Shown in pieces: positions 36,947 through 49,600 of a DNA stretch of 51,353 bases. Numbering within the stretch: the first letter of the stretch is position 1; each line of letters starts with the position of its first letter. The stretch lies in NCBI GenBank assembly GCA_022767075.1, contig JALEPP010000052.1, forward strand, positions 1 to 51,353, read 5' to 3'. This DNA is from Agathobacter sp. (lineage in GTDB: Bacteria; Bacillota; Clostridia; Lachnospirales; Lachnospiraceae). The translations under genes and the position numbers were made by a program. Below the pieces are notes generated by a model. It did no database searches, was not told where the DNA came from, and saw only the letters and a list, made by a program, of their open reading frames with translations.

Positions 36947-38308
36947 TTATTCTTCCATCTCTGCTTCTGCAGCTTTGATCATAATTGCACACTCCACTCG
37001 TTTCTTCTGAAGCTCGCATCCGATATCGTATGCGTTTAAAATGCTTCCGTGGAAATTGTAAGAGTTTGCCGCACAACCACCGGAGCAGTAGAATCTGGCA
37101 AAGCAGTTACGGCATTTTTCTTTGGCGTATACATTACAGCATTTGAACTCGTCCTGAATATCCGTACGCTTGATGCCGTTCCATACATCACCCATCAGGA
37201 AATCCTCGTTTCCTACAAACTGGTGACATGGATATAAATCTCCCCAAGGAGTTACTGCCAAATATTCGGTTCCCGATCCGCATCCTGACAGACGCTTGGC
37301 CACACAAGGACCGCCCTCCAGGTCAATCATAAAGTGGAAGAAGTTAAAGTCCTCTCCCGCTTTCTTTCTGCGAATCATTTCCTTTGCAAGACGATCGTAC
37401 TCTTCACAGATAACCGGAATATCTTCCTCTGTAATTGCGTACGGGTCCTCCGGCTGAGCCACAACCGGCTCCACAGAAATCTGCTTAAAGCCAAGGTCTG
37501 CCAGGTGAAGTACGTCATTTGAGAAATCGGTATTATAGTGGGTGAAGGTACCTCTTACATAGTAGCGCTCCTGATTGCGGCTCTCCGCAAGCTTCTGAAA
37601 CTTCGGAACAATCAGGTCATAGCTTCCTGCTCCCTTTCTAAATGGGCGCATACGATCGTGGACTTCCTTACGTCCATCGATACTAAGTACCACGTTATCC
37701 ATTTCCTTGTTGGCAAATTCCATGATGTCATCATTTAAAAGAACACCATTGGTGGTAAGGGTAAAACGGAAGTGCTTGTCGTGAAGCTTCTCCTGCTCTC
37801 TTCCGTATGCAACCAGCTGTTTTACTACATCAAAATTCATAAGAGGCTCACCACCGAAGAAGTCCACCTCCAGGTTGCGTCTCTGACCGGAGTTTGCAAT
37901 CAGGAAATCCAAAGCCTGTTTTCCGGTCTCATAGCTCATAAGAGCTCTTCTGCCATGGTACTCTCCCTCCTCTGCGAAGCAGTACTGACAGGCTAAGTTA
38001 CAGTCATGGGCAATATGTAAGCAAAGGGCTTTTACCACAGTTGGACGCTTTTTAAAGTCCATGATGTAGTTTTCATAAGCGTCCTTTGTGAACAGCTCCT
38101 CATCATCCTTTAAGCTTTGAACCTCATCCAAAGCCTCCTTAATCTCCGACTCCGGATAAGTTCCCTTCAAGGCTTCGATAATCTCTTCTCCGGATTTCTC
38201 CTCAAACATTGCAATCACATCGTATGTGACATCGTCCACCACATGGATGGCACCACTATTTACATCTAAGACAATATTATAGCCGTTGTTCTTATACTGA
38301 TGAACCAC
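36947..38308 (-). CDS. scfB: SCIFF (ranthipeptide) radical SAM/SPASM maturase
   Basis: 'CLHIAHDCNLACQYCFAEEGEYHG' (CxxxCxxC), SPASM Cys cluster 'CNVYAKEKCRNCFARFYCSGGC'; directly follows a SCIFF precursor. Confidence 0.93.
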   Translation of the reverse strand: MVHQYKNNGYNIVLDVNSGAIHVVDDVTYDVIAMFEEKSGEEIIEALKGTYPESEIKEALDEVQSLKDDEELFTKDAYENYIMDFKKRPTVVKALCLHIAHDCNLACQYCFAEEGEYHGRRALMSYETGKQALDFLIANSGQRRNLEVDFFGGEPLMNFDVVKQLVAYGREQEKLHDKHFRFTLTTNGVLLNDDIMEFANKEMDNVVLSIDGRKEVHDRMRPFRKGAGSYDLIVPKFQKLAESRNQERYYVRGTFTHYNTDFSNDVLHLADLGFKQISVEPVVAQPEDPYAITEEDIPVICEEYDRLAKEMIRRKKAGEDFNFFHFMIDLEGGPCVAKRLSGCGSGTEYLAVTPWGDLYPCHQFVGNEDFLMGDVWNGIKRTDIQDEFKCCNVYAKEKCRNCFARFYCSGGCAANSYNFHGSILNAYDIGCELQKKRVECAIMIKAAEAEMEE

Positions 38309-38390: not shown

Positions 38391-38419
38391 AAAAAAAGAC
38401 CGCCCGATACCGAACGGTC
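38391..38419 (-). terminator. intrinsic terminator between scfA and its maturase gene
   Basis: Minus strand GACCGTTCG-GTAT-CGGGCGGTC-TTTTTTT, 14 nt past the scfA stop. Confidence 0.85.
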
Positions 38420-38433
38420 CGTTTGAACACAAA

Positions 38434-38577
38434 TTATTTGTTCTGCTCGCAGGTCTGGTTTCCTACTGTACAAGAAGTTTTGCAAGCTGACTGGCAAGAA
38501 GTCTGGCACTCACCACATCCGCCTTTTTTGATAGTGTTCTGTAATTTCTTTGTATTTAAGGTCTTTACATGTTTCAT
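38434..38577 (-). CDS. scfA: SCIFF family precursor peptide (six Cys in forty-five residues)
   Basis: MKHVKTLNTKKLQNTIKKGGCGECQTSCQSACKTSCTVGNQTCEQNK; six Cys; start re-called inside ORF 38434..38655. Confidence 0.95.
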   Translation of the reverse strand: MKHVKTLNTKKLQNTIKKGGCGECQTSCQSACKTSCTVGNQTCEQNK

Positions 38578-38632: not shown

Positions 38633-38662
38633 ATTATAGCATAGCAATCTGCCATTATTCAA
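38633..38662 (-). promoter_or_regulatory. promoter of scfA
   Basis: Minus strand TTGAAT - 18 nt - TATAAT with TGc extended -10. Confidence 0.75.
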
Positions 38663-39128
38663 GCTTTTTCTTAATATCTGACACAACACGCTCCACCATG
38701 TTGTCTACATACTTCTCCTTAATCTCGTCAATCCGGTCCACCACATTCTGCTGCTGTCCCAAAGAAACGATATACCCTCTTGTGGGAGTCTCGGATCCCT
38801 CCAGAGAAATCAGACAGCCTCCCAGGTCGCTGATTATGGTATCCAGCTCACCGGCAAAATAGTCCGTGACATTTTCCACGGTAGGCATAGTAACATCAAA
38901 AGGAGCAACTTCATTCATAATACGATTCTGATAGGTTGATAAAAACCGGTCTACTGCCTTCTCAAACACACTAAACTCAATGAACTCATCTCCCGGCATT
39001 ATGATAACCGTCACAAATTCCCACGTGTGGGGATGTACCTGTCCCGGCTTTCCGTTGAAAATAATATAGTGGTTCATATTCAAATAGGATTTTAATCGAT
39101 ATTCCCGATAAATATTTCCCTTTCTCAC
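38655..39128 (-). CDS. 6-pyruvoyl-tetrahydropterin synthase-like protein (XrtG-system associated), copy B
   Basis: 'VHPHTWEFVTV' (HxH), 'EFSVFEKAVDRFLSTYQNRIMNEVAPF', 'PTVENVTDYF', 'ISLEGSETPTRGYIV' follow the PTPS motif order. Confidence 0.7.
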   Translation of the reverse strand: MRKGNIYREYRLKSYLNMNHYIIFNGKPGQVHPHTWEFVTVIIMPGDEFIEFSVFEKAVDRFLSTYQNRIMNEVAPFDVTMPTVENVTDYFAGELDTIISDLGGCLISLEGSETPTRGYIVSLGQQQNVVDRIDEIKEKYVDNMVERVVSDIKKKLE

Positions 39129-40183
39129 TGGGTCTCCTCTCTATCAATCCCATGATACTGCGAATAATAGCTGCCATTTTCCAGACGGAGCTCTCTTTGA
39201 GACACCGGAATGACATCCTTGGTCTCAATCATTCCTTCATATTTCTTTCCCTCTCCCAGGTCTGCGCCTACACAGATTAAAAGAAGCCTGGTATCCGAAA
39301 GAGCAAACCTTAAGACGGTTTCATCCATGACAACCAGAGTCTTTCTCCAAAAACGCTCTACGGCTCTTTGGTTCATGGCATGATAATCCAACAGGGTGAT
39401 ACACTCTATCTCCTTGCTTGTAAGCTCATCCAGAAAGTTATCCAGAATCTCACCGGAAAATACATGATTTCTGCTGGAGTAAAGCTGCTGGGTTCGAAGC
39501 AGATAGTCCAGCTTGTTAACCCGGTTGGTGGAAAGCTCCAGCTTCTGCCTGTACTCTTCCAACAGCATATTCTTCTCATCAATCTTTTTACCACAGACCA
39601 TGAGGCAAATCATGTAAATCACCAGCACCACAATGGTCATAACCAGCATGGCGTATTTGGATGCAAGAAGGACATTCTGCTCCAGAATCACCTTGTCATA
39701 GGTCAGAAGGCATACCCGATACTCATTTCCTCTCCAGGAAAACGTACCGCCCGAAGCCACATAGCGATCGTTTTTCAGGTAAATGATTCTATGGATGACC
39801 TTCTTATCATTGAGAGAATCTATGAACTCTCTGGAGGTCTCCGAATCGTAATAGGAGTCCGAGGACAAATTCTTGTAGCGGTTTGTCTCGGTAACGGATT
39901 TGATAAAAAGGATATTATCCCCCGTAGACAAGGTCCAGTATTTACTGGAATCCGAATCCAGAGAGCTGATAATATCTGTAATCTTTTCCTCTGTGGCATC
40001 CTCCCCCAATCTTCCTATCTGATCCAGGGTAACCTTAACATAGCCATCCTGTTCCACTCCGTAGATATCCAGAAAAGCCTTCTCGTAATTATTCAATTGA
40101 AAAAGAAAGATTGCTGCCATCAGCACGGCAGATACTACCGCAACCACCGATAGTACCCCAAAATACTTCTTCTTTTTTTTCAT
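39125..40183 (-). CDS. membrane protein with extracytoplasmic sensor-like region and coiled-coil cytoplasmic part
   Basis: TM1 (FGVLSVVAVVSAVLMAAIFLF), ~150-aa external region, TM2 (LASKYAMLVMTIVVLVIYMICLMVCG), coiled coil; ATGA overlaps both sides. Confidence 0.65.
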   Translation of the reverse strand: MKKKKKYFGVLSVVAVVSAVLMAAIFLFQLNNYEKAFLDIYGVEQDGYVKVTLDQIGRLGEDATEEKITDIISSLDSDSSKYWTLSTGDNILFIKSVTETNRYKNLSSDSYYDSETSREFIDSLNDKKVIHRIIYLKNDRYVASGGTFSWRGNEYRVCLLTYDKVILEQNVLLASKYAMLVMTIVVLVIYMICLMVCGKKIDEKNMLLEEYRQKLELSTNRVNKLDYLLRTQQLYSSRNHVFSGEILDNFLDELTSKEIECITLLDYHAMNQRAVERFWRKTLVVMDETVLRFALSDTRLLLICVGADLGEGKKYEGMIETKDVIPVSQRELRLENGSYYSQYHGIDREETQ

Positions 40184-41556
40184 ATCTCCTCTACTTCTGG
40201 CTCATTTACCTTGCTGCGAAGCCATTCCAACATATCCTTAGGTTTTCGCAATTCTCTGAAAACCTCCTCTGTAAAGCTTTCCCTCTCCTGGGTCAGATTC
40301 TTGGTCTTCCATGCTCCATCAGTTCCGATACTATTGACAATTCCTGCCAGTCGAATAAAGAATACCACCAAGTTAAAAAGCGGTAGAAACGGAACGATAT
40401 ACCATTTTTTGGCATAGTATTTCCTGAGCTTGGGGAACTCCCTCAAAAAACCAACTGTAGATATATAATACAGATATCCTACGATAATGTAAAATACCAT
40501 AATCATCCCTGTGGACAGGACGATCATTTTGGATGAAAAATGCATAGCCATCAGGCAAATCAATGCCAGATACCAGATTACTCGTGGAAAAGCAAAGGTA
40601 TGGTCATACATCAGCGTACGCACGGTCACATCTGTGAACGCATTTTTTACCGTAAGCTTATCCTTCAAAAACTGGTGGGAAACCTCCAGTGAGCCTCGCT
40701 GCCAGCGTTGTCTCTGGGTATATAGTTTATTGACATCCTCAATAGGATCCACCATAAATAGGGCGTTTTCGCAGATACAGATTCGAACCCCTTGTAAAAA
40801 CCTCATCTGGAAGGTAATGTGAGTATCTTCACAAATGGTATCGGTATTGTACATCTGAGATTTCAATACGGCTGATTTGCGGAAGGCGGAAAAGGCCCCG
40901 GAAAGCGTATAGATATTGTTTCTGTCATCTGCATAGTTGCGGCCTGCAAGAAAGGCCTGGGCATACTCCATGAACTCCATCTCTCGAAAGATTTTTCCGA
41001 ATCCATGATACTCCTCTATCATCTCCGGCACAATGAGAATTGCTCCTGTCATACACCCGATATCCGGTTCTGCTTCAAACTTACGGACCAGATTGCAAAG
41101 AGCATGGGGCTCAAACACTCCGTCAGAGTCCACATGAACGATATATTTGCCATCCGAGTTAAAGAGCGCCAGATTCAGAGCTCTGGACTTGCCCTGCTTT
41201 GCATTGAGCCACTGCATCAAAAGACCTGGATATTTCTCCTGACACTTGGTATATATTTGGAAGGAATTGTCCTTGCCCTGATTGTTTACCAGGAAAATTC
41301 GAATTTTGTCATTGGGATAGGTGCTCTCCTCAATGGAGCGAATACACGCCTCCAGGGAATCCTGTGAATTATACACCGGGATAATCAGCGTGATTTCCGG
41401 CCATATCTGCGGATCCTCATAGTGCTTCTTCTTTATGAATTTCTTCAACAGCACAAAGGCACTACCAATAGCCGGGACAATCTCCATAATCAGTGGAATG
41501 ATAATCCAGGCAGCCCAAAACATAATGGAATTCACAAATTCATTTAGGATTGTCAT
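40180..41556 (-). CDS. family 2 glycosyltransferase, exosortase G system-associated type
   Basis: 'ITLIIPVYNSQDSLEACIRSIEES', 'VHVDSDGVF', 'EDTHITFQMRF', 'QRQRWQRGSLEV', TM helices; overlaps xrtG. Confidence 0.85.
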   Translation of the reverse strand: MTILNEFVNSIMFWAAWIIIPLIMEIVPAIGSAFVLLKKFIKKKHYEDPQIWPEITLIIPVYNSQDSLEACIRSIEESTYPNDKIRIFLVNNQGKDNSFQIYTKCQEKYPGLLMQWLNAKQGKSRALNLALFNSDGKYIVHVDSDGVFEPHALCNLVRKFEAEPDIGCMTGAILIVPEMIEEYHGFGKIFREMEFMEYAQAFLAGRNYADDRNNIYTLSGAFSAFRKSAVLKSQMYNTDTICEDTHITFQMRFLQGVRICICENALFMVDPIEDVNKLYTQRQRWQRGSLEVSHQFLKDKLTVKNAFTDVTVRTLMYDHTFAFPRVIWYLALICLMAMHFSSKMIVLSTGMIMVFYIIVGYLYYISTVGFLREFPKLRKYYAKKWYIVPFLPLFNLVVFFIRLAGIVNSIGTDGAWKTKNLTQERESFTEEVFRELRKPKDMLEWLRSKVNEPEVEEI

Positions 41557-42172
41557 AATGGAACGAGCCCACCTTCTGCTTAATAATCTGAGGTTTCGTA
41601 AACACGTAAAAATATAAAGCTACGGATAATCCGTAGAACACCAGTCGACCCACTATGGTGTGAGCCAGATAATACTGCTCTACTCCACCAAAATAAATCA
41701 TGGTACAAATCACGGTAAGTCGAATGGCATTGGACACAATAATCACCAGAGTTCCCACGATTCCCACCAGCACACGCTCCGCTACGGTATACACCTTGAA
41801 AAAGGCAAGGAGCGAAAGAAAGGCCAGAATCTCTATAATCCCGGAGCATTCAAAATCTATCTTAAGGGAAAGTGCTCCGGATACCGAATCGATAAAAATG
41901 GTTCCATATTTGTAGTAAGTGCTGTACATCCCGGTAATCTGTCCCACAAGGGAATTAAACAAAGCAACCACTCTTGCCAACGGCTCTGTTAACACCGGCC
42001 GAAGGAGCACAAAGCTCATGACAAAGGTTCCTGCACCTCCCACCACAAAATGCCAGAAGTCCAGCTTGGTCTTCTTCAACACATGTAGGATAAATAGCCA
42101 GACCACCAATATTGTGACGAGCAAGATGCCCTTTCCGATATTTTCTGCACTTAGCAAACTATTCCAACTCAT
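41540..42172 (-). CDS. xrtG: exosortase family protein, XrtG type
   Basis: Start re-called to MSWNSLLSAENIG; polytopic; Cys in 'DFECSGIIEILAFL', Arg in 'SNAIRLTVIC', His in 'LAHTIVGRLVFYGL'. Confidence 0.9.
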   Translation of the reverse strand: MSWNSLLSAENIGKGILLVTILVVWLFILHVLKKTKLDFWHFVVGGAGTFVMSFVLLRPVLTEPLARVVALFNSLVGQITGMYSTYYKYGTIFIDSVSGALSLKIDFECSGIIEILAFLSLLAFFKVYTVAERVLVGIVGTLVIIVSNAIRLTVICTMIYFGGVEQYYLAHTIVGRLVFYGLSVALYFYVFTKPQIIKQKVGSFHYDNPK

Positions 42173-44679
42173 TACTGTTCTCCTGCAACCGACCTCTCTT
42201 GTAAAGCCATCTGCTTTTCCTCTTCCGTTTTCTTTACAAATCCTGCTCTTTTTCTGAGATAACCAAGATAGAGAATCCACAAAACCAAGGCTATGGCTGA
42301 TACCATGGCTCCCTTTTCCCATCCCCTCAGATAATAGCGGATTGTGGTAGTTCCCTTCTGAACAATCAGCATATGATTCTTTTCTGATATGGAATCCTCC
42401 GTATCAAATATCTCATGGAAGGAACGGGTGGTATTGACATTATCATAGTCACTTTCAATCACCATCCCTCTGGAATCCTCGGTGATTGTCAAAGGCACAA
42501 GCTTTCTTTCAGGCAACGCGCGGCTGCTCATATCAATGGCACGTTCCAAAAGCTTCTCTACCCCCTCATCACCTGTCAGTCCCCAATAATAGCTGAGATT
42601 GAGACCTACAAATATAATATTATCATTTTTCACAGTTCCGAAAAAGGGGATATCGTAGCTTTCGTCCGCCACTCTTCCCCAGATTTCGTCCAGACCATCC
42701 ACATATTTGGTTTCCCACTCCCGGTGTCCATCCGGGAACAAATCGGTGTCCAGTTCCCCGTCTATGGTTTCCAGCAAAGGGTATCCCTGGGAAAAAGTAA
42801 TCGTATTACATACCACTCCCAAAAAGCTCTGAGCCTTACTCTCTCTGTCCTCCGGTACACCATCCGCTGATATGACAATTCGAACCCCCGCTTCGCTAAG
42901 CCTGGTCACCAGATCCTCCGCCACTGCTGTGTCCTCGTAGGCAATGCCTGCCAGATAAATCATATCGTACTGGCTCAGCTCCTCAAAGCTGTAGTGATCC
43001 AGATAGGGATCCGCGGTCTCTTCCATACCCGGAAAACCCAGAGCAAAGGAATGATTTCCTGTTCCAATTCCAATGGCATGATATTGGGTGATTATTCCAA
43101 AGGTTCCGGTGACATCCTCAAGATGGTAAAACCGATAGTCGTTATTGGCATCCACCAGCTCATACCCGCTTGCAGCCGCCTCTTCATCCAGCTGCTGCAC
43201 TGTGCAATGCTTAGATAAGCTGGAGAGTTTTACCACCACAGAATCATTTCCCATTTCCTTACACCGGTCAAACAGATAGGTAAGATTGCCACCGGAAACA
43301 GCCCTGTTCAGCTGTGAGATATTGGACGAGGTAACCGCAGCCTCCCAGCCGGCACCAAAGCTGCTCTTCACCCCATCTCTCCAGGCAGTGGTAAGAAATG
43401 CCCCGGTGGCTCCAAGACTGCTTTCGTCAATTAGTGCAAGCCTCTGAACCGTCATTTCCTGAGCCTTCTCAAGAAATGAATATTCCCACAGCTCATCCAG
43501 ACGTTCCTCAGGCTGTTTTTCCGATTGGTTTCCATATACCAGGTAACCTGAGGGAATACAATCTGCAACAATCAGCACACAAAAAAGCACCAAAAAACGT
43601 TTTTTGAGCTGCCTCCAATTCAAAAAGGAATAGAGCACAAAACAGATTGCGATAGAGAAGAAGCGTAGCATCCATAGGTAACCGCTGCCGGGCAAAGCAC
43701 ATACCACTCCATACATGGTCTTTGTAGACAGCAATACAAGGACAATTGCCACCCAGAACGCAGGCCTGTTATTTTTCGTAGAAAGGAAAGCGCCAAACAC
43801 CGCCAGCAAAAACAGGGATAAACCAAAATAAAAAAAGGTGTCTCGATTGTCCGTCAGTCGAATAAACGGATTCAGGGATATGGACAGCTGCTGGAAAAAC
43901 AGCTTCATGGTCTCTGATGCATCCATGGATACAATTCCGCCCCCCAGGGAAGGCAGCAGCCACACTCCCGTAAGCAGAAATCCAAACAGAATTGCAAGCA
44001 CTGCACGGACTCCGGCAACATATTCCTTCATAGACACACAGTATATTCCCAAAAACAACAGCGTCGCCAAAGCCAGCATTCCTGCATATCCCAGATGGCA
44101 CAATATCATAAGGACAAAGCTTATGGTAATCCCCATAAAATCCGTCACCCTTTTTTCCTCCAGGTATCGGTACAGGTACATTACGAAAACCGGCAGGAAA
44201 ATCATACTAAGACTTCTGGCAAGATTTCCCTCAATAAATAATGCACACAGATTGTTGGGAATAAAAAACCAAAGGATTCCGATAAAGGTTCCCATCCAAA
44301 ACCTGTGGATTTTCTGACCGATAAACGACCAGGATATCCCTCCAAAGAAGAAAACTACTCCACAAAAAAAGAGATACCCCAAAAACAAGTCTCCCCCTGC
44401 AAGATACTGAAAAAAAGCCATGGCATACGCAGTAAGAGGAGCCCAGTATCGAAGAAGCTCCACACCATTATACCAATCCTGGTTGATAAGAGGATACCAA
44501 TTCCCCTCCTCCAATATGGAGTGGTACAGATAATCCCCCCTGTAAATGTGATAATAGGTATCACTACCGGTAGGGTAAACCCCGTTTCTTCCAAGGATTT
44601 CCATCAATAAAAAAGAAAGCAGGGTATAAAGAACCAGGACCCCGATCCATCTTGCGATGGTCAATGTCTGTTTCTTCAT
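42172..44679 (-). CDS. PTPS-related domain polytopic membrane protein
   Basis: 'PTGSDTYYHIYRGDYLYHSILEEGNWYPLINQDWYNGVELLRYWAPLTAYAMAFFQYLAGGD' then many TMs and a C-terminal soluble domain; TAATG 1-nt overlap with xrtG. Confidence 0.85.
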   Translation of the reverse strand: MKKQTLTIARWIGVLVLYTLLSFLLMEILGRNGVYPTGSDTYYHIYRGDYLYHSILEEGNWYPLINQDWYNGVELLRYWAPLTAYAMAFFQYLAGGDLFLGYLFFCGVVFFFGGISWSFIGQKIHRFWMGTFIGILWFFIPNNLCALFIEGNLARSLSMIFLPVFVMYLYRYLEEKRVTDFMGITISFVLMILCHLGYAGMLALATLLFLGIYCVSMKEYVAGVRAVLAILFGFLLTGVWLLPSLGGGIVSMDASETMKLFFQQLSISLNPFIRLTDNRDTFFYFGLSLFLLAVFGAFLSTKNNRPAFWVAIVLVLLSTKTMYGVVCALPGSGYLWMLRFFSIAICFVLYSFLNWRQLKKRFLVLFCVLIVADCIPSGYLVYGNQSEKQPEERLDELWEYSFLEKAQEMTVQRLALIDESSLGATGAFLTTAWRDGVKSSFGAGWEAAVTSSNISQLNRAVSGGNLTYLFDRCKEMGNDSVVVKLSSLSKHCTVQQLDEEAAASGYELVDANNDYRFYHLEDVTGTFGIITQYHAIGIGTGNHSFALGFPGMEETADPYLDHYSFEELSQYDMIYLAGIAYEDTAVAEDLVTRLSEAGVRIVISADGVPEDRESKAQSFLGVVCNTITFSQGYPLLETIDGELDTDLFPDGHREWETKYVDGLDEIWGRVADESYDIPFFGTVKNDNIIFVGLNLSYYWGLTGDEGVEKLLERAIDMSSRALPERKLVPLTITEDSRGMVIESDYDNVNTTRSFHEIFDTEDSISEKNHMLIVQKGTTTIRYYLRGWEKGAMVSAIALVLWILYLGYLRKRAGFVKKTEEEKQMALQERSVAGEQ

Positions 44680-44700
44680 ACCCTTACCTCCTTCTATGTC

Positions 44701-46521
44701 TTACATTATTTTTCTTCTCTTTTTCAGTCCATAAGCGGCCACTACCACACCTAGAGATAATGCTAAGCCCACAATTGGTCCCGTGGAGGTACCTGCGCAA
44801 GAAACCCACTGTCCTCCGATTCTTCCAAACTGTGCGTGTATCGTCTTCAGACTACTTTGATCACAGCCAAATTTTTCAGCCAGATCCGCAAGGTACAGCT
44901 GGAACTCCATCTCATCCCTGCCATTTTGTCCGATGGTCATAATCATTTTTCCATAAATATGATCCCCCGGTGTCAGCTCATTGATGTTCTTGGAGTTGCC
45001 CCAGGCATCCAGAGACATCACGTAGAACTCATAGGTACCAGGCTCATAATGGTTTGGCTTAACATTCCAGTCAATATTGCCATTTGCGTCCACCGTAACA
45101 AAGCGTGGTCCAAATTCGTATCCATCGGATTTGGTCTTTGGATCAGACACATTAAACTTTACGGTAATGGCAGATAAAAACTCGCCTCCTGCCTCCTTCA
45201 AATGGTCCGGATGCTCTGTCACCACATGACCGTACAAGGATTCTCCGTCCGAATAGAGGGCAGCCTTACCGTCCTGCTTGAACTCATGGGTTCCCGCAGT
45301 ATCATATTGAATCACAGCATGTGGCAGACTGTTCCACTCCTCATAGCTTCCGTCACAGCTCATCTCCCCCACAGGGGTGGAATTTTCCTGGCTGTTCTGT
45401 AAATCCGTGATTCCTGTGATAAATGGATCTGACAAATACAGACCAAACTGGAAGGACTCCTTCCATTTACAATTCTCAAACTGACTTTTCGGGATTGCAA
45501 TCTCCCACTGGGTTCCCACGTGAGAAACCTGAGCTCCATCCACGCCGGAAATTGAGCTGTCCCAGCCAAGCTGGAACAATACATTATCTCCCAGATCCGA
45601 TGAAATGGAATACTTTCCGTTGGAATGGGTTCCCGCTCCCGCTGCGGATTGGCCCTCTCCTTCTTCTATGTACAGGTACATCCAGTCTCCGTCCCACACT
45701 GCTGCGACTTTAGAAAGACAATCCGGATGTCCCTGATTCGGACATTTTGCATCCTCCTTTGCCACGGCATTCCAGTCTCCAAAGGAACCGTCTATCTGAA
45801 TCCCTTTGTAATCCTCCAGCTTCTCTCCGGAATCCTCCGGTGTATCTACAGGTTCCTGACCGCCCTCTGGCTCTGTGGAGGTCTCAGTATCCACAGCTTC
45901 CTCCGTGTCTACGGGCTCTTCAGGTTCCGATGGATGATCGGTCTGAATCGTAGCCTCCGGGATATCCGAAAACGAAATAACGTTGGCCGCATCATTTCCA
46001 AGATAGAGTCCTGTCAGTCCCTCCGGGAAATAGCTGAGCGGAACCGCAAACTCTACCACATATGGACCCGGGGTATTCAAATTAGCGCCATTGGAAATTG
46101 AGCCTAAGGCTCCTTCCACCACTCCATAACTGCTGTTTCTCACCACTGCCCCATCATTCTCTTTGGTAACACTAAGGGCTGTCGCCGTATTCTCCGGCCA
46201 TCCAAGCTCTCTGTCATACTGGCAATGAAGTACCACCTGCCCAGCATAGGAAAAATCCCACTGATTGGCTGAGGTACCACAATACATCACATACAGATAG
46301 TCCTGACCCTTTACTGTCTTCCATTGTTCTACTTCTGAGGAACTTCCCTGTATGGCACCTAATCCTTCCCATTCCGAAGCGTCCCCATCCACAACCGGCA
46401 GCTTTGCAACCACCTCACTGGCGTATGTGGTGCTACGTTCACCGGGCACCATGACGGTTGCCATAACAAGCATCAAGGACATGGTCAATGCTATTCTCTT
46501 TTTTGGAAGTATTCTTTTCAT
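44701..46521 (-). CDS. secreted surface protein with C-terminal sorting-like tail (Firmicu-CTERM-like)
   Basis: Signal peptide 'RIALTMSLMLVMATVMVPGERSTTYASE'; three 'DG..xxW' modules; C-term 'WVSCAGTSTGPIVGLALSLGVVVAAYGLKKRRKIM'. Confidence 0.75.
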   Translation of the reverse strand: MKRILPKKRIALTMSLMLVMATVMVPGERSTTYASEVVAKLPVVDGDASEWEGLGAIQGSSSEVEQWKTVKGQDYLYVMYCGTSANQWDFSYAGQVVLHCQYDRELGWPENTATALSVTKENDGAVVRNSSYGVVEGALGSISNGANLNTPGPYVVEFAVPLSYFPEGLTGLYLGNDAANVISFSDIPEATIQTDHPSEPEEPVDTEEAVDTETSTEPEGGQEPVDTPEDSGEKLEDYKGIQIDGSFGDWNAVAKEDAKCPNQGHPDCLSKVAAVWDGDWMYLYIEEGEGQSAAGAGTHSNGKYSISSDLGDNVLFQLGWDSSISGVDGAQVSHVGTQWEIAIPKSQFENCKWKESFQFGLYLSDPFITGITDLQNSQENSTPVGEMSCDGSYEEWNSLPHAVIQYDTAGTHEFKQDGKAALYSDGESLYGHVVTEHPDHLKEAGGEFLSAITVKFNVSDPKTKSDGYEFGPRFVTVDANGNIDWNVKPNHYEPGTYEFYVMSLDAWGNSKNINELTPGDHIYGKMIMTIGQNGRDEMEFQLYLADLAEKFGCDQSSLKTIHAQFGRIGGQWVSCAGTSTGPIVGLALSLGVVVAAYGLKKRRKIM

Positions 46522-46558
46522 TCTTCTCCCTCTCTCAGACCTTACGTTAACTTGTTCT

Positions 46559-46930
46559 CTATTCATGGGATCCCTCTACAATGGCATACACCCTAAGAGG
46601 AGTCTCACTAATTTCAAATCTCTGTAAACTCCAGCCACTCTTTTCATATTCAGGCCACAGCCTTTCGTAAATAACCTCTCCAATATTTTCAATGGAAAGG
46701 TCTCCGTGGAACTCCGGATAATCGTTGAGATATTGAAACTGATATGGTTCCAGAATCTGTTCCATAAGCATCTCCATTTTTCTCACTTCTCCAAAGTCAT
46801 CCTCACTATCCGAAAAGCCGCTGACCGTACCAATCTCTATAACATGATTGTGCTTATGCTCTTTTTTGTTGTCGAAGCTGTGCTGCATACACAGTCTATG
46901 TTTCAAGCGATAATATCTCACTACAAACAC
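46559..46930 (-). CDS. 6-pyruvoyl-tetrahydropterin synthase/QueD-like protein, copy A
   Basis: 'EHKHNHVIEIG' (HxHN), 'FGEVRKMEMLMEQILEPYQFQYLNDYPEF', 'LSIENIGEVIYERL', 'FEISETPLRVYAIV'. Confidence 0.75.
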   Translation of the reverse strand: MFVVRYYRLKHRLCMQHSFDNKKEHKHNHVIEIGTVSGFSDSEDDFGEVRKMEMLMEQILEPYQFQYLNDYPEFHGDLSIENIGEVIYERLWPEYEKSGWSLQRFEISETPLRVYAIVEGSHE

Positions 46931-47010: not shown

Positions 47011-48093
47011 TCAGTTTTTTCCTGTTTTGAACACAATACATCTCTGAATCTGGTAGCTAAGGAAGAAAATACCAACATCGACCGGTATTTTAATGACACT
47101 TTCCGGAAGATGGGTTATGGTATAGATTCCCCATACGCACCCCGCCGACAAAAGCAATTGGGTCACACACAAGAGATAATATTTCGCCAAGGTCCTCCAT
47201 AGCTGCCCCTTTGCCCCAAACACCAATTTCTTGTTGAGGGTAAAATTCACAAGGGAGGAACAGGCTCTGCTTCCAAGGGTTGCAAGGAATATGCGTGCCT
47301 TTGGATCCTTCAACGCCAAGAGCCAGATAAACAGCTGAAATAACCCAATATCCACCGCAGAGGAAGCCAGGGAAGCAGCCACAAAGGAAAAGAAGTTCTG
47401 AAACATCAATCCATATATTCGCAGAGAATCCTTCACAGGATGGAAATGAGACTGCGGGTTTCCCTCCTCATACACGGTGGCTATGGTGCACTCTCTTATT
47501 TTGTCTCCGTGTCTCACCACATCCATCAACATATTCATTTCCAGCTCATATCCCTCGCCCTTAAGCTCTAACACTCGACTGCATAATGACCTGCCCATGG
47601 CTCTAAGCCCCGTCTGGGTATCCTTCAAGTACCTTCCAAACAAGAGGAAGAAGACTCTGGACGTAATACGATTTCCCATCTTACTTTTCCATGGGATATC
47701 CGGATTCTTCCCGGAAAAATCCCGCACCCCAAGGATCAAGGCCTCTGTCTCTTCCACAAGGCATTTTGCCACGGCTACCACGTCCTCTGCCAGGTGCTGT
47801 CCGTCAGCATCTGCTGTTACCACTCCGGGAATTCCTTTCTCCTGCAAAACGGATGCTATCGCCGTCTTCATGGCTCTGCCCTTCCCTCGGTTTTCCCGGT
47901 GGCGGATGACCCTACAGGCTTCCAACTCGTCAACCCTTGAAAATATGCTCTGACAGGTCTCATCACTTCCATCATCTACCACTACAATATGCAAAAAACC
48001 ATACTGTTGCAATTGCTCCACATAGGCAACTAACTCCTCCTTCGGATTCAGTGCCGGAATCACCACCGCTACCTCTTTCCAACTACATTCCAT
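47011..48093 (-). CDS. dolichyl-phosphate-mannose-synthase-like GT2 fused to a GtrA-like membrane domain
   Basis: 'VAVVIPALNPKEELVAYVEQL', 'VVDDGSDETCQSIF', 'GVVTADADGQH', C-terminal 'SAVDIGLFQLFIWLL...SSLVNFTLNKKLVF'. Confidence 0.9.
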   Translation of the reverse strand: MECSWKEVAVVIPALNPKEELVAYVEQLQQYGFLHIVVVDDGSDETCQSIFSRVDELEACRVIRHRENRGKGRAMKTAIASVLQEKGIPGVVTADADGQHLAEDVVAVAKCLVEETEALILGVRDFSGKNPDIPWKSKMGNRITSRVFFLLFGRYLKDTQTGLRAMGRSLCSRVLELKGEGYELEMNMLMDVVRHGDKIRECTIATVYEEGNPQSHFHPVKDSLRIYGLMFQNFFSFVAASLASSAVDIGLFQLFIWLLALKDPKARIFLATLGSRACSSLVNFTLNKKLVFGAKGQLWRTLAKYYLLCVTQLLLSAGCVWGIYTITHLPESVIKIPVDVGIFFLSYQIQRCIVFKTGKN

Positions 48094-48202: not shown

Positions 48203-49600
48203 TTATAGCTCGCAGTTATTTACCGTTCTTGGGAATGGAATGACATCACGGATATTGCCCATACCGGTTAAGTACATCACACAGCGCTCAAAGCCAAGTC
48301 CAAAGCCTGCATGTCTTGCAGAACCGTATTTACGTAAATCAAGATAGAAGCCGTAGTCCTCCTCATTGAGTCCCAACTCCTTGATTCTTGCAAGAAGCTT
48401 ATCGTAATCGTCCTCACGCTGACTTCCTCCGATGATTTCTCCGATTCCCGGCACCAAGCAGTCTACTGCTGCAACTGTCTTTCCGTCCTCGTTGAGCTTC
48501 ATGTAGAAGGCTTTAATCTCCTTTGGATAGTCCGTTACGAAAACCGGACGTTTGAATACCTGTTCGGTAAGATAGCGCTCATGCTCGGTCTGAAGGTCAC
48601 AGCCCCAGGATACCTTGTAATCAAACTCATCATTGTGTTTTGAGAGAAGCTCAATTGCTTCCGTGTAGGTAATTCTGGCAAAATCATTGCTTACAACGTT
48701 CTCAAGGCGATCTAAAAGACCTTTGTCTACGAAATTGTTGAAGAAGGCCATCTCCTCAGGAGCATTCTCTAAAACATAGTTAATCACGTATTTTAACATG
48801 CTCTCTGCAAGCATCATATCGTCTCCCAAATCTGCAAATGCGATTTCCGGCTCAATCATCCAGAACTCTGCCGCATGGCGAGTGGTGTTAGAGTTCTCTG
48901 CTCTAAAGGTCGGTCCAAAGGTGTAGATATTCTTAAACGCCATGGCGTAGGTCTCACCGTTCAACTGTCCTGATACCGTAAGGTTGGTTGGCTTATTGAA
49001 GAAATCCTTTGAGAAATCTACTTTGCCATCCTCAGTCATTGGCACGTTGCTTAGGTCCATTGTGGTAACCTGGAACATCTCTCCTGCACCCTCACAGTCA
49101 CTTCCTGTAATCAATGGAGTGTGAACATAGACAAAATCCCTCTCCTGGAAGAATTTGTGAATCGCATAGGCGCAAAGGGAACGCACACGGAACACAGCCT
49201 CAAAGGTGTTGGTACGTGGTCTGAGGTGTGAGATGGTGCGCAGGTATTCAAAGGTGTGACGCTTTTTCTGAAGTGGGTAATCCGGTGTCGATGCCCCTTC
49301 TATCTCTACCGTCTTTGCCTGAATCTCAAATGGCTGCTTAGATTCCGGTGTCGGAATCAGAGTACCTGTTACGATGACAGCGGCACCAACATTGATTTTC
49401 TGAAGTGCATCAAAATTCTCAATGCCATCTGCATATACCACCTGAATCGGTTCAAAAAAGGTTCCGTCATTTACAACAAGGAAGCCAAAATTCTTGGATG
49501 CACGGTTGCTTCTAACCCATCCTCCGATGGTGATTTCCTTGTTTTCATATTCTCCCTGATTGCGAAAAATATCTCTTACATTTACAAGCTTCATCTTCAT
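48203..49600 (-). CDS. asnS: asparaginyl-tRNA synthetase
   Basis: '[34 protein letters not shown]', '[25 protein letters not shown]', '[28 protein letters not shown]'. Confidence 0.97.

Follow-up and report, generated by a model that had tools for sequence, protein, structure and literature searches.

A probable surface-polysaccharide operon of Agathobacter with an exosortase G and a single dedicated substrate

A cluster of genes in Agathobacter sp., a member of the Lachnospiraceae, brings together an exosortase G (XrtG), a glycosyltransferase (GT), a polytopic PTPS-related protein, two small PTPS-like proteins, a sensor-like membrane protein and one secreted protein, raising the question of what an exosortase accomplishes in this company. 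XrtG, its GT and the Firmicu-CTERM substrate are already curated families; the kind of locus is thus known. A literature search for the XrtG/Firmicu-CTERM system returned one expression report, in which a complete XrtG system is over-expressed in some interferon-inducing Lactiplantibacillus plantarum strains (PMC12854382), and found no demonstrated function for any XrtG system, no XrtG biochemistry and no mechanism paper. Here, we describe a computational analysis of the window, the whole 51,353-nucleotide stretch under study (assembly GCA_022767075.1, contig JALEPP010000052.1), and of related loci. We propose that a surface polysaccharide is the probable product of the operon and that XrtG places one sugar-binding-like protein there. 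Specifically, we assign a probability of about 0.6 to the reading that the XrtG/Firmicu-CTERM system is a polysaccharide machine under signal control, in which the substrate docks at XrtG and is usually cut by it.

Seven co-directional genes occupy positions 38655-46930, all on the minus strand, and a check of the open reading frames placed every one of them where the initial annotation had drawn a seven-gene operon (Table 1). Four of the six junctions overlap by 1-17 nt: the polytopic protein and XrtG genes by 1 nt (TAATG at 42172), the XrtG and GT genes by 17 nt, the GT and sensor genes by 4 nt (ATGA at 40180-40183) and the sensor and PTPS-A genes by 4 nt. This agrees with the overlaps first described, except that the last of them, at 39125-39128, reads GTGA rather than ATGA and the start codon is GTG. 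The two remaining junctions are gaps, of 37 nt between the PTPS-B and secreted protein genes and of 21 nt between the secreted protein and polytopic protein genes. A GT2-GtrA gene that had gone unmentioned lies 80 nt upstream of the operon on the same strand; it is a possible donor supplier, and its membership in the operon is uncertain. Farther upstream lies an asnS-like gene (48203-49600, called from sequence), and the downstream flank is scfA-scfB-secDF.

Table 1. Genes of the XrtG operon and the adjoining GT2-GtrA gene
Product	Position	Strand	Basis
PTPS-like A, small cytoplasmic PTPS-fold protein	38655..39128	-	TIGR03112 113 bits, over cut-off; PF01242
Sensor-like membrane protein, no named family	39125..40183	-	structure model; Foldseek; conserved in 72 loci
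XrtG-associated GT2, synthase-like	40180..41556	-	TIGR03111 590 bits
Exosortase XrtG	41540..42172	-	TIGR03110 181 bits; Cys/Arg/His conservation
PTPS_related polytopic protein, probable GT-C-type transferase	42172..44679	-	PF10131 453 bits; YfhO profile match
Firmicu-CTERM substrate	44701..46521	-	TIGR04145 96.5 bits against 50; tail motif; model
PTPS-like B, second PTPS-fold protein, His ligands	46559..46930	-	PF01242 43.9 against 22.4 bits
GT2-GtrA fusion, polyprenyl-phosphate sugar synthase type	47011..48093	-	PF00535 and PF04138

Directly after the PTPS-A gene, scfA (38434-38577, minus strand) encodes a SCIFF peptide, MKHVKTLNTKKLQNTIKKGGCGECQTSCQSACKTSCTVGNQTCEQNK, and precedes the maturase gene scfB (36947-38308) and secDF. 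Promoter and terminator scans came out near chance (28 against 21.8 and 17 against 10.8, respectively), the exception being a good hairpin with a T-run at 38397-38420, after scfA. An Rfam search of the window found no riboswitch and no other RNA.

Curated NCBIfam and Pfam models bear out the identities proposed earlier for the exosortase G, its associated GT, the PTPS-related protein and a dedicated secreted substrate, the matches of the core genes ranging from E 1e-177 to 1e-27, far beyond chance. XrtG itself matches TIGR03110 with 181.1 bits against a cut-off of 102.75. Its catalytic residues, Cys108, Arg150 and His170, stand in ECSGI, SNAIRL and LAHTIVG just as the initial annotation had quoted them, and are identical in 90/90 unfused homologues examined. 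The pattern scan was run on a set of closer homologues. The XrtG of the window thus has an intact Cys-Arg-His triad. Sequence searches of the PDB with XrtG, the substrate, the PF10131 protein and the sensor returned nothing credible.

The secreted protein is of the curated XrtG substrate type, Firmicu-CTERM, a sorting-tail model (TIGR04145) that had been overlooked. It consists of a signal peptide, three beta-sandwich domains and a C-terminus of the form GTSTGP-TM-KKRRK. This tail motif occurs in 79/80 clostridial homologues; the one exception (L094) has the exosortase itself as its C-terminal end. The production and anchoring of a surface protein, as suggested earlier, is consistent with the tail motif and with the active site of XrtG being intact, and the protein may be glycosylated or glycan-linked, as was also put forward there. 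With residues and motif intact, cleavage of the window substrate by XrtG appears most likely. An AlphaFold2 model built with 50 homologues (pLDDT 87.6) predicts the three beta-sandwich domains followed by a C-terminal helix. Foldseek matches to this model include CBM9 (E 0.005, prob 1.00, TM to target 0.45) alongside many immunoglobulin-type folds, and a CBM9 profile found no match by sequence in the substrate or its family members, nor did any Pfam family match the window protein; the weak fold resemblance to CBM9 suggests that the substrate may bind sugar. Sequence conservation is poor beyond the domains (the alignment has a mean column identity of 19%), and the linker between domains 1 and 2 is acidic and contains Thr.

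The GT scores 589.9 bits against the TIGR03111 cut-off of 363.95 and carries the motifs DSDG, CEDT and QRQRW of a processive, synthase-type GT2; Q[QR]xRW is present in 79 of the 102 ORFs hit. In this it resembles synthases of the PgaC/IcaA and BcsA types, which are membrane GT2 proteins with DxD, ED and Q(Q/R)xRW, but PgaC/IcaA, its second-best curated match, reaches 126 bits, far below the cut-off of 422. The PF10131 profile aligned with that of YfhO, which we take to be a GT-C-type family, over 315 columns (prob 93, E 3e-7), whereas control comparisons of PF10131 and of YfhO with the exosortase family gave prob <1. The PF10131 protein is therefore a probable GT-C-type transferase, as judged from this alignment. 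PTPS-like A has distant PDB matches to PTPS/QueD and keeps the His ligand triad (H20, H32 and H34) and the pterin-site Glu, as seen across 45 aligned members. PTPS/QueD enzymes have a catalytic Cys upstream of the HxH motif, and no conserved Cys was found near this motif among the 45 members; we therefore assign the family to the PTPS fold and do not file it as a PTPS or QueD enzyme. PTPS-like B falls just below the TIGR03112 cut-off (63.9 against 69.35 bits) and exceeds that of Pfam PTPS. At one locus, the cassette GT is apparently broken: the ORF at L093:8043-11126 begins GT-like and continues as a PTPS domain, and no full GT was found there.

The gene that the initial annotation had called a sensor-like membrane protein is a conserved cassette member, present in 72 loci, and matches no Pfam or NCBIfam family over cut-off. 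That description can be sharpened: the model (pLDDT 86) predicts a TM helix, an extracellular PAS/Cache-like domain, a second TM helix, a long coiled coil and an alpha/beta domain, and a PAS/Cache-like ectodomain with a degenerate GGDEF fold is the more apt description. In Foldseek, the alpha/beta domain matched the GGDEF proteins DgcB, WspR, SiaD, PleD and a Marinobacter cyclase, and PAS/Cache proteins were also found; the GGDEF likeness is one of fold only, with E about 1e-3 for single-domain matches and TM to target about 0.5. The GG[DE]EF motif is present in 0/72 homologues, so that the sensor should make no c-di-GMP. PelD and BcsE are degenerate GGDEF regulators of polysaccharide synthesis, and the sensor resembles them in being a GGDEF fold without the cyclase motif beside a polysaccharide synthase; it differs in its extracellular PAS/Cache-like domain and shows no sequence match to them. 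Its fold and tight linkage to the cassette suggest a regulatory role. No sensor gene was found in non-clostridial loci, and the sensor is thus not essential to the core.

To place the operon among its relatives, one genome per species was scanned, yielding 80 loci, in which the cassette was mapped with iterated profiles built from the window's own proteins. The common order, [PTPS]-substrate-XrtG-GT-sensor-PTPS-PF10131, occurs in most of the 80 loci and in nearly all that are long enough. In the clade of the window (L031-L040), the PF10131 gene lies between those of the substrate and XrtG. The flanking scfB, asnS and secDF genes are not common to other loci, indicating a cassette without a fixed site. 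Among 250 Lachnospiraceae genera, XrtG is present in 16, each of which also has a Firmicu-CTERM gene at the same locus; with one further genus, Firmicu-CTERM reaches 17. Strong PF10131 scores were obtained in 15 of the 16 XrtG genera and in one other genome, and the sensor (E<1e-8) was confined to 12 of the 16. XrtG and Firmicu-CTERM are each encoded once in the source genome of the window, and about 3% of genomes in order-wide and phylum-wide samples carry XrtG. Two outlying cases were recorded. A strong PF10131 match (315 bits) lies at G224:C2:167860-169635, in a genome that belongs to the same family but lacks XrtG, and a Coriobacteriaceae MAG labelled Actinomycetota (L063) has XrtG and a substrate on a 6 kb contig, near the clostridial forms, which may reflect transfer or a binning error.

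The sequences carry the operon, its families, the one-to-one pairing of XrtG with its substrate, the Cys-Arg-His triad and the tail motif. On this basis, the reading that we favour would proceed as follows. The GT would polymerise and extrude a glycan, and the GT-C-like PF10131 protein, together with the cytoplasmic PTPS-like zinc-type proteins, would add or transfer sugar from a polyprenyl-phosphate donor. The substrate, exported by Sec and then held by its C-terminal helix, would dock at XrtG, where Cys108 would cut it near GTSTGP and the product would be handed to an acceptor, either lipid or glycan. At the cell surface, the beta-sandwich domains would then act on the glycan or keep it in place. 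Finally, the TM protein with the dead GGDEF fold would sense an outside cue and switch the synthase without making c-di-GMP.

Fusions of the substrate with XrtG into a single chain bear on the docking step. They occur in two lineages, both outside the window. A Syntrophomonas-like clade has ten fused genes of about 400 residues (L021, L022, L024, L025, L124, L128, L129, L130, L131 and L132; one genome has two copies, and L131 is cut by a contig end), in which the ectodomain runs directly into exosortase TM1. These ectodomains are 35-38% identical to the separate substrate and keep its QWxPxP end; in L113 and L127, the separate substrate has ~230 residues, with DIQWSPIPI followed by a helix and a basic tail at its C-terminus, and the adjoining exosortase has its Cys. 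Their link to the clostridial substrates is weaker (profile prob 75, E 3e-5, 47 columns; TIGR04145 E about 0.001-0.009 on the non-clostridial ectodomain) and is backed by position and a common DGxxxDW motif. The second, independent fusion is a 623-residue protein of a Lachnospiraceae assembly (L094:8448-10319), a single MAG, in which GASTGP is followed at once by exosortase TM1. Such Rosetta-stone links are strong evidence that the ectodomain is the partner of XrtG, and they put the helix of the substrate in the position usually taken by TM1. Fusions of the substrate to PF10131 and PTPS in other lineages add further links of this type.

The two fusions differ at the active site. In all ten Syntrophomonas-like proteins, the catalytic Cys is replaced, by Asn in nine and Ser in one, while Arg is kept in 10/10 and His in all nine that extend that far; the GT and PF10131 genes remain in place alongside. 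The L094 protein keeps its Cys. The residue is thus found in every unfused homologue, in none of one fused clade and in the single other fusion. On a tree, the Cys-less fusions group as a single clade (support 93/84) that nests next to unfused forms with Cys, which indicates one event, not ten, and repeated independent loss of the Cys was rejected for this reason. A machine whose ectodomain is tethered can therefore, as these fusions show, persist in the absence of the nucleophile, and cleavage is dispensable in this one clade.

These observations make docking, as the deeper role of XrtG, a serious rival to cleavage. XrtG may be mainly a scaffold that keeps the beta-sandwich ectodomain beside the synthase, with cleavage secondary or regulatory, as both kinds of fusion suggest, and as does the finding that other, non-clostridial lineages (L111, L115 and L116) carry the substrate domain at the C-terminal end of a PTPS-PF10131 protein of 1300 residues. 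However, the invariant Cys of unfused exosortases and the nearly universal cleavage-type motif of clostridial substrates suggest that cleavage is under selection in unfused systems, the loss of Cys is a single event and L094 is one MAG; we consider the scaffold reading the less likely of the two. A wider formulation, which we advance tentatively, is that XrtG is a docking device with an optional protease step, that fusion at the same point in two lineages put exosortase TM1 in place of the substrate tail helix, that in one of them the enzyme became a Cys-less pseudo-exosortase still serving the polysaccharide machine, and that in Clostridia a new family of dead-GGDEF receptors controls this machine. 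It is improbable that PF10131 instead glycosylates protein with sugar supplied through GT2-GtrA and that XrtG anchors a glycoprotein of the sort envisaged in the initial annotation, as the relation of PF10131 to YfhO, the neighbouring GT2-GtrA gene and the Thr-containing acidic linker might suggest, since the synthase-type GT points to a polymer, GT2-GtrA relatives lie near or inside the cassette at only about 18 of some 80 loci (e.g. L102, L108 and L110) and the substrate is poorly conserved outside its domains.

Every component of the XrtG/Firmicu-CTERM system (TIGR03110, TIGR03111, TIGR03112, TIGR04145 and PF10131) is present in the window, with one dedicated substrate at the locus, and all curated cut-offs are passed except that of TIGR03112 by PTPS-B; the window differs in its sensor-like gene of no named family and in the position of PF10131 between substrate and exosortase. 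Like exosortase A/PEP-CTERM (EpsH; PMC1569441), the system has a polytopic enzyme with conserved Cys, Arg and His, a motif-TM-basic tail and polysaccharide genes nearby, but the host belongs to the Bacillota, the enzyme is of about 210 residues and there is a single substrate, with GTSTGP rather than PEP as its motif. New here are the conserved degenerate-GGDEF sensor family, the PF10131-YfhO alignment and processive-synthase motifs of the GT, the predicted three-beta-sandwich substrate, and the substrate-XrtG fusions, with one clade lacking Cys. In a search that covered part of the exosortase literature, we found no prior description of the degenerate GGDEF family or of fused Cys-less exosortases. 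XrtG systems occur in gut Clostridia and in L. plantarum, and the definition of the cassette (substrate, motif, regulator and GT-C partner), together with its natural Cys-less fusions, offers a handle on the purpose of the exosortase cysteine.

DivIVA-like stretches accompany the PTPS-PF10131 protein at two loci. At L120:1302-4811 (minus strand), one is fused before it (Pfam E 6e-4), and at L112:13837-14355 (minus strand), a separate gene that is DivIVA-like by sequence resemblance only adjoins it; these stretches hint that the machine may be placed at a pole or septum.
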